A stretch of 64,000 bases of DNA from the NCBI RefSeq assembly GCF_019059575.1, contig NW_024882783.1, positions 62,001 to 126,000 of the forward strand, in the 5' to 3' direction. The position numbers and the translations under genes were made by a program. The stretch comes from Amphibalanus amphitrite. Lineage: Eukaryota > Arthropoda > Thecostraca > Balanomorpha > Balanidae. The first letter of the stretch is position 1. Every line of letters begins with the position of its first letter. This document shows, one piece after another, positions 44,187 to 44,369 of this stretch. The notes beneath the pieces were generated by a model. That model saw only the letters and a program-made list of their open reading frames with translations. It was not told the origin of the DNA and searched no databases.

Positions 44187-44369
44187 TCACTCCTTTGCCT
44201 CGGGCGTTTTCGTACCCACGATGGTGGCGTACTCGGTTTTCTCGGGACTCGGGCGCACCTCCGTCTTGACGCCGTCCTTGTTCAGCACGAGCTCGGCGTA
44301 GACGACCTCGCCCTTCTCGCGCTTGGGCGAGCCCTCGCCGTCCGGGGCTGTCAGCTCCTTGGTCTCTTC
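44187..44369 (-). CDS. Fas3: Fas3-like last exon with ITIM-like and ITSM-like motifs
   Basis: Acceptor TTCCATCAG, phase 0 entry, stop TGA at 44187-44189, 60 residues. VVYAEL (44289-44306) fits I/V/L-x-Y-x-x-L/V and TEYATI (44220-44237) fits T-x-Y-x-x-V/I. They are 23 residues apart, tyrosine to tyrosine, in a Lys/Glu-rich tail. Confidence 0.85.
   Translation of the reverse strand, partial: EETKELTAPDGEGSPKREKGEVVYAELVLNKDGVKTEVRPSPEKTEYATIVGTKTPEAKE

Follow-up and report, generated by a model that had tools for sequence, protein, structure and literature searches.

The window, a 64,000-nucleotide stretch of the genome of the barnacle Amphibalanus amphitrite, carries on its minus strand a receptor gene that runs from about 53.6 to 44.2 kb as a series of open frames with splice-like borders. 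Read from these frames and borders, the gene would encode three Ig domains (on five exons) and one membrane span, followed by cytoplasmic exons; its signal-peptide exon was not located. The features are as follows:

53440..53601, minus strand: first exon of Ig1 (ends approximate)
52951..53139, minus strand: second exon of Ig1 (ends approximate)
52259..52594, minus strand: Ig2, C2-set_2 (ends approximate)
51787..51984, minus strand: first exon of Ig3 (ends approximate)
51253..51438, minus strand: second exon of Ig3 (ends approximate)
50261..50371, minus strand: transmembrane exon, ending in GGIIVAVIVLLAVIALVAFARSRGKWCFA, with a phase 1 donor; 25 of 38 aligned residues are the same in a paralogue on contig C231
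47648..47859, minus strand: tail A, an alternative last exon ending in PTDTPV and a stop, joined to the transmembrane exon phase 1 to 1
46000..46027, minus strand: inferred micro-exon (AKSSDAGAEA) that would bridge the transmembrane exon (phase 1) and the SDTES exon (phase 2)
44913..45042, minus strand: SDTES exon, the middle cytoplasmic exon of tail B (SDTESAHDEKTDKPEGKGFKLSNLYSSLVTKKKEGDVESAANK), entered in phase 2 and left in phase 0
44187..44369, minus strand: last coding exon of tail B, from a phase 0 acceptor to the stop
44289..44306, minus strand: ITIM-type motif VVYAEL, kept in the C231 paralogue
44220..44237, minus strand: ITSM-type motif TEYATI, which is TEYAVIV in the C231 paralogue

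The joined ectodomain matched the Pfam families Ig_3/V-set, C2-set_2 and I-set above their cut-offs; six exon frames searched singly gave no Pfam family above cut-off, with four weak matches to one of the frames. Among the 60 of 566 PDB sequence matches listed, the best for the ectodomain were CADM4, nectin-2 and SIRP-alpha (E 2e-8 to 2.6e-6), of which CADM4 and nectin-2 rank at the top, both weak. The nectin ectodomain is of the V-C2-C2 type, as against Ig_3/V-set, C2-set_2 and I-set in the barnacle, and by these assignments the barnacle set types appear to fit the nectins and CADM proteins. Nectins have PDZ-ligand tails, and we know of no alternative ITIM/ITSM tail in that family. The sequence-only reading had called the receptor Fasciclin-III-like. 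No row named Fas3 occurs among the Pfam matches or among the 60 of 566 PDB matches listed, and the label is partly supported, resting on the architecture of three Ig domains and a membrane span and on the putative alternative cytoplasmic ends; Fas3 itself has three Ig domains. The order of Ig domains, hydrophobic segment and in-frame tail would place the tail motifs in the cytosol.

Other frames lie elsewhere in the window. A 597-aa open frame at 38837-40630 on the minus strand starts like a signal peptide; its N-terminal part contains cysteines and its long remainder is rich in Thr, Ser, Gly and Arg. Pfam gave no match to it, and the PDB none of note. On the plus strand, about 21000-35000 is occupied by exons of another Ig-superfamily gene, by eye presumably Sidestep-like, in which a 47-residue segment (26207-26347) has a C2-set_2 match just over the cut-off (E 1.6e-4).

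Both tails can be read in frame from the transmembrane exon with its phase 1 donor, and because of these two continuations the ITIM/ITSM tail looks like one splice option, as far as genomic exons and phases tell. That tail B is one of two continuations is a point absent from the sequence-only reading. Tail A ends in DTPV, and the C231 exon in the equivalent place ends in PPSDTAV and a stop; the two exons are alike at their ends, and their overall similarity is weak (14 of 2000 shuffles scored as well; tblastn E 0.59). A class I PDZ ligand is a C-terminal (S/T)-x-hydrophobic, which both DTPV and the DTAV of the paralogue fit, making them putative PDZ-binding ends.

A direct junction between the transmembrane and SDTES exons is ruled out, as their phases are mismatched (1 against 2), and a micro-exon is inferred for this reason. 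The candidate at 46027-46000 has 28 bases, strong splice sites (CTCCTTTTTCAG ... GTGAGT) and a frame that stays open to the stop, and with its flanks it is identical at 109 of 110 bases in the second haplotype on contig C706. It was picked by eye for splice sites and phase out of 7 candidates that passed the filter in the window, the paralogue offering 17, and automatic pairing of the candidates did not single it out. A C231 candidate of 25 bases, likewise picked by eye, also has strong splice sites, and its peptide is unlike that of the window (alignment score -2, below other pairs). With a choice made by eye and unlike peptides in the paralogue, the micro-exon junction is a probable rather than an established one.

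This proposed layout is of the same kind as that of Drosophila Fas3, an Ig adhesion protein whose extracellular domains are common to its forms while the intracellular ends vary. Seven Fas3 splice isoforms give five proteins with a common extracellular part and different insides (PMC12173457), and exon 6 or 6a is chosen behind a common donor, the excerpted text leaving the position of the membrane span unstated (PMC7644725). We liken the two by architecture, not by sequence alignment. Drosophila Fas3 tail sequences were not found in the printed excerpts, where isoforms are named and a single antibody peptide (for isoform G) and a single shRNA target are printed, and the word ITIM is absent from the excerpted text of the isoform paper (PMC12173457).

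The frame at 44369-44187 on the minus strand translates to EETKELTAPDGEGSPKREKGEVVYAELVLNKDGVKTEVRPSPEKTEYATIVGTKTPEAKE, followed by TGA. It begins behind the acceptor ttccatcag (then GAA, phase 0) and closes with the stop, so that the earlier description of it as the last exon is true of the coding part. VVYAEL and TEYATI, which had been reported in one tail exon at 44220..44306, are both present and lie exactly at the ends of that interval, with 23 residues from tyrosine to tyrosine. VVYAEL fits the ITIM consensus (I/S/V/L)xYxx(V/L) (PMC6851185), and TEYATI, as well as TEYAVI of the paralogue, fits the ITSM consensus TxYxx(V/I) (PMC7078208). When the 113-residue inferred tail was shuffled, an ITIM followed 15-40 residues on by an ITSM arose in 35 of 200,000 shuffles, the single motifs being found in 8% (ITIM) and 2% (ITSM) of shuffled tails, and random tails of average composition held the pair in 169 of 200,000. 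The window has 455 stop-to-stop frames of 60 aa or longer, and such a pair occurs in a single one of them, the tail B exon. As evidence, the single motifs are weak and the pair, above all its conservation in the paralogue, is strong. Relatives of the tail were not confirmed among viral contigs, prokaryotic genomes or PDB chains; these collections are not arthropod genomes, and the negative result is therefore uninformative on arthropods.

In a search of the barnacle's genome, which comprises 807.6 Mb in 2644 contigs, 4 candidates were scored for the tail, and three of them matched at E ≤ 0.001: the contig of the window, C706 and C231. We take C706 as the second haplotype of the locus, with DNA 97% identical to the window in the aligned pieces and a tail exon that differs at 2 bases and no residue over 180 bases. 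C231, by its gene content, is a paralogue of the receptor gene: apart from the alternative tail, all eight exons of the receptor used as queries have counterparts there, in order (tblastn E ≤ 1e-9). A side observation concerns the intron immediately preceding the motif exon, where the window has 195 bases of unbroken ATT repeat (44553-44747) that is absent from the second haplotype, two BLAST pieces abutting at that point.

Identity between the paralogues is 36-42% in the Ig exons (Ig1a 21/53, Ig1b 22/61, Ig2 42/112, Ig3a 27/65, Ig3b 24/59), and outside the ectodomain it is 25/38 in the transmembrane exon, 23/43 in the SDTES exon and 46/60 in the tail exon. Within the latter, the block from EVVY to GTK keeps 30 of 34 residues and has 15 synonymous and 6 non-synonymous differences (dN 0.08, dS 1.19), a block that was selected for its conservation. 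The whole tail exon has a dN of 0.19-0.21, which is far below that of the Ig exons (0.55-0.67) but nearer to that of the transmembrane exon (0.24); the SDTES exon stands at 0.33, and dS across exons ranges roughly from 0.70 to 2.47. Both tyrosines, V or T at -2, L or I at +3 and the 23-residue spacing are kept in C231, so that the ITIM and ITSM consensuses are satisfied at all defined positions in both paralogues. The conservation of both tyrosines and both +3 residues, on which the sequence-only reading had proposed to be judged, thus holds in one diverged paralogue. A third, membrane-proximal tyrosine, the remaining one of the tail and encoded by the SDTES exon, has become phenylalanine there (NLYSSL to SLFSSL), which by comparison of the two copies offers a useful internal contrast to the retained motif tyrosines. 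Judged from one paralogue and one second haplotype of the same genome, the motif residues are under purifying selection.

These comparisons bear on several other explanations, not all of them exclusive of a phosphatase-docking tail. That short, loose motifs matched by chance is highly improbable; although an ITIM alone is common in shuffled tails, the rarity of the pair in the shuffles and the purifying selection on the motif residues stand against it, and because C231 keeps 30 of 34 residues of the motif block despite 36-42% identity in the Ig exons, we reject a chance origin of the pair. The linker between ITIM and ITSM is also almost invariant, which is more than two SH2 docking sites alone require and which the phosphatase reading leaves unaccounted for. 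The conservation of the block as a whole, linker included, would suit a single folded or extended segment that binds a scaffold, with the likeness to ITIM and ITSM incidental. We consider such a segment distinctly unlikely, as both consensuses are met at every defined position in the two paralogues while the non-motif tyrosine was lost. The motifs could also act unphosphorylated, since Y-x-x-hydrophobic is a sorting signal for clathrin adaptors and YAEL and YATI both fit it; the tail would then set endocytosis or polarised delivery, and one tail could serve both jobs. Sorting as the explanation is unlikely, given that such a signal needs neither V at -2, nor T-E at -2 and -1, nor a fixed spacing, all of which are kept.

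A candidate partner for a phosphorylated tail is encoded in the same genome. A search with PF00017 returned 75 SH2 matches, haplotype copies included, among them a multi-exon SHP2/Corkscrew orthologue on contig C634 with two SH2 domains and a phosphatase domain bearing HCSAGIGRTG. Its N-SH2 domain is identical to that of human SHP2 at 89 of 107 residues and at 17 of 18 positions which we take to form the binding groove, the exception being V14L. The 75 matches also hold Src-like (L008) and Csk-like (L015) SH2 domains, recognised by eye, which leaves room for a tail whose tyrosines bind different SH2 or PTB proteins, such as Src-family or adaptor SH2s, and which is activating rather than inhibitory. 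SHP2 itself often promotes signalling, so that even with SHP2 as the partner "inhibitory" is the least certain word in the description. The sequence contexts V-x-Y-A-E-L and T-E-Y-A-T-I are nevertheless of the SHP1/SHP2 type, and we regard other partners as somewhat unlikely.

From the exons, their reading phases, the motifs, their conservation in the paralogue and an SHP2 with a conserved SH2 groove, we propose that the gene probably encodes a Fas3/nectin-type receptor whose cytoplasmic end is spliced to be either PDZ-ligand-like or an ITIM/ITSM tail, the latter binding SHP2/Corkscrew once phosphorylated. Splice choice, by way of the micro-exon junction for tail B, would set the end of the expressed receptor, giving either a short PDZ-ligand-like tail or one in which 23 residues separate the ITIM from the ITSM. 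Adhesion would cluster the tail B form, a Src-family kinase would then phosphorylate both tail tyrosines, and the two SH2 domains of SHP2/Corkscrew would bind the phosphorylated pair, an event predicted to open the phosphatase and to localise it at the contact, with a consequent effect on signalling.

The likeness to vertebrate inhibitory Ig receptors that had been noted from the sequence is borne out in the consensuses and, for order and spacing, by PD-1, in which the ITIM precedes the ITSM by 25 residues against 23 in the barnacle receptor. PD-1 differs in having one Ig domain to the barnacle's three. The barnacle TEYATIV and the human PD-1 ITSM (the Y248 site) agree at all seven residues, whereas the PD-1 ITIM, VDYGEL, has glycine at +1 where the barnacle VVYAEL has alanine, as does BTLA IVYASL. 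The human motifs VDYGEL and TEYATIV appear in phosphopeptides (PMC7078208), and alanine put into PD-1 at +1 favoured recruitment of SHP1 (PMC8631942). The PD-1 ITIM-ITSM bis-phosphopeptide is described as a weak SHP2 activator in comparison with a two-ITSM peptide (PMC7078208), and the motif pair alone therefore does not predict strong activation. SIRP-alpha and the Siglecs resemble the barnacle receptor as Ig receptors that recruit SHP1/SHP2 via tyrosine motifs and have alanine at +1 in the ITIM; SIRP-alpha was third among the 60 of 566 PDB matches listed (E 2.6e-6), and the relation is one of general Ig likeness. Two short motifs and general Ig likeness are insufficient to support common descent, and the resemblance to vertebrate ITIM receptors lies in the motifs and does not attest to shared ancestry.

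ITIMs in arthropod receptors are already known from Draper-II and Daphnia Dscam. Draper is not an Ig receptor, and Dscam has many more domains than the barnacle receptor. Draper-II is nonetheless similar as an arthropod receptor with an ITIM in a splice isoform and an SHP2-type phosphatase as partner; Corkscrew binds this isoform through the ITIM in Drosophila (PMC9008705, PMC8092387), a binding that was shown for Draper-II and is predicted for the barnacle receptor, and the excerpted texts name the ITIM without ITSM pairing. Daphnia Dscam is, like the barnacle receptor, a crustacean Ig adhesion receptor, and its tail has an optional ITIM, the ITIM or an ITAM being included or excluded by splicing; it belongs to another family, and ITSM pairing is not mentioned in the excerpted text (PMC6851185). 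The same source describes Penaeus and crab Dscam as lacking the ITIM (PMC6851185), indicating that these motifs are gained and lost among crustacean receptors. The open-access literature gave us no Fas3/nectin-like receptor with an ITIM-ITSM pair on one of two splice ends, to which PMC9205596, where Fas3 and "immunoreceptor tyrosine-based" both occur, is a possible exception; nor did it give a paper with both fasciclin III and ITIM.

Tandem ITIM/ITSM tails are discussed mostly as a vertebrate immune device, and at least 32 human receptors have two or more such tyrosine motifs (PMC8631942). Stronger constraint on the tail than on the ectodomain would suggest that bivalent docking of SHP2 is a general means of coupling contact to a phosphatase. 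A wider claim, which we offer tentatively and hold to be possible at a little less than an even chance, is that one invertebrate adhesion gene yields, according to the splice after the membrane span, either a PDZ-anchored receptor resembling nectins or one resembling PD-1 and SIRP-alpha that recruits SHP2 by a tandem ITIM-ITSM. The latter would be a phosphatase brake that depends on cell contact and acts outside the immunity of vertebrates, and it would have been retained in two gene copies as their binding domains diverged. The barnacle gene also offers a testable idea for the five different intracellular ends of fly Fas3.

In addition to the multi-exon gene on C634, the genome has an intronless SHP2-like copy, a 660-aa open frame with two SH2 domains and a phosphatase domain, found as L009-L014 on three contigs (C407:316997-317542 with flanks, C1410 and C2275). 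All three copies read HCSTGIGRTG in place of the HCSAGIGRTG of the multi-exon gene, with a threonine that we presume to be a residue impairing human SHP2. The top PDB match of the intronless copy, 4ohd, has the same threonine, and the next, 8rzw, has alanine. The intronless copy may be a retrogene whose product is predicted to bind phosphotyrosine but to be a poor phosphatase.
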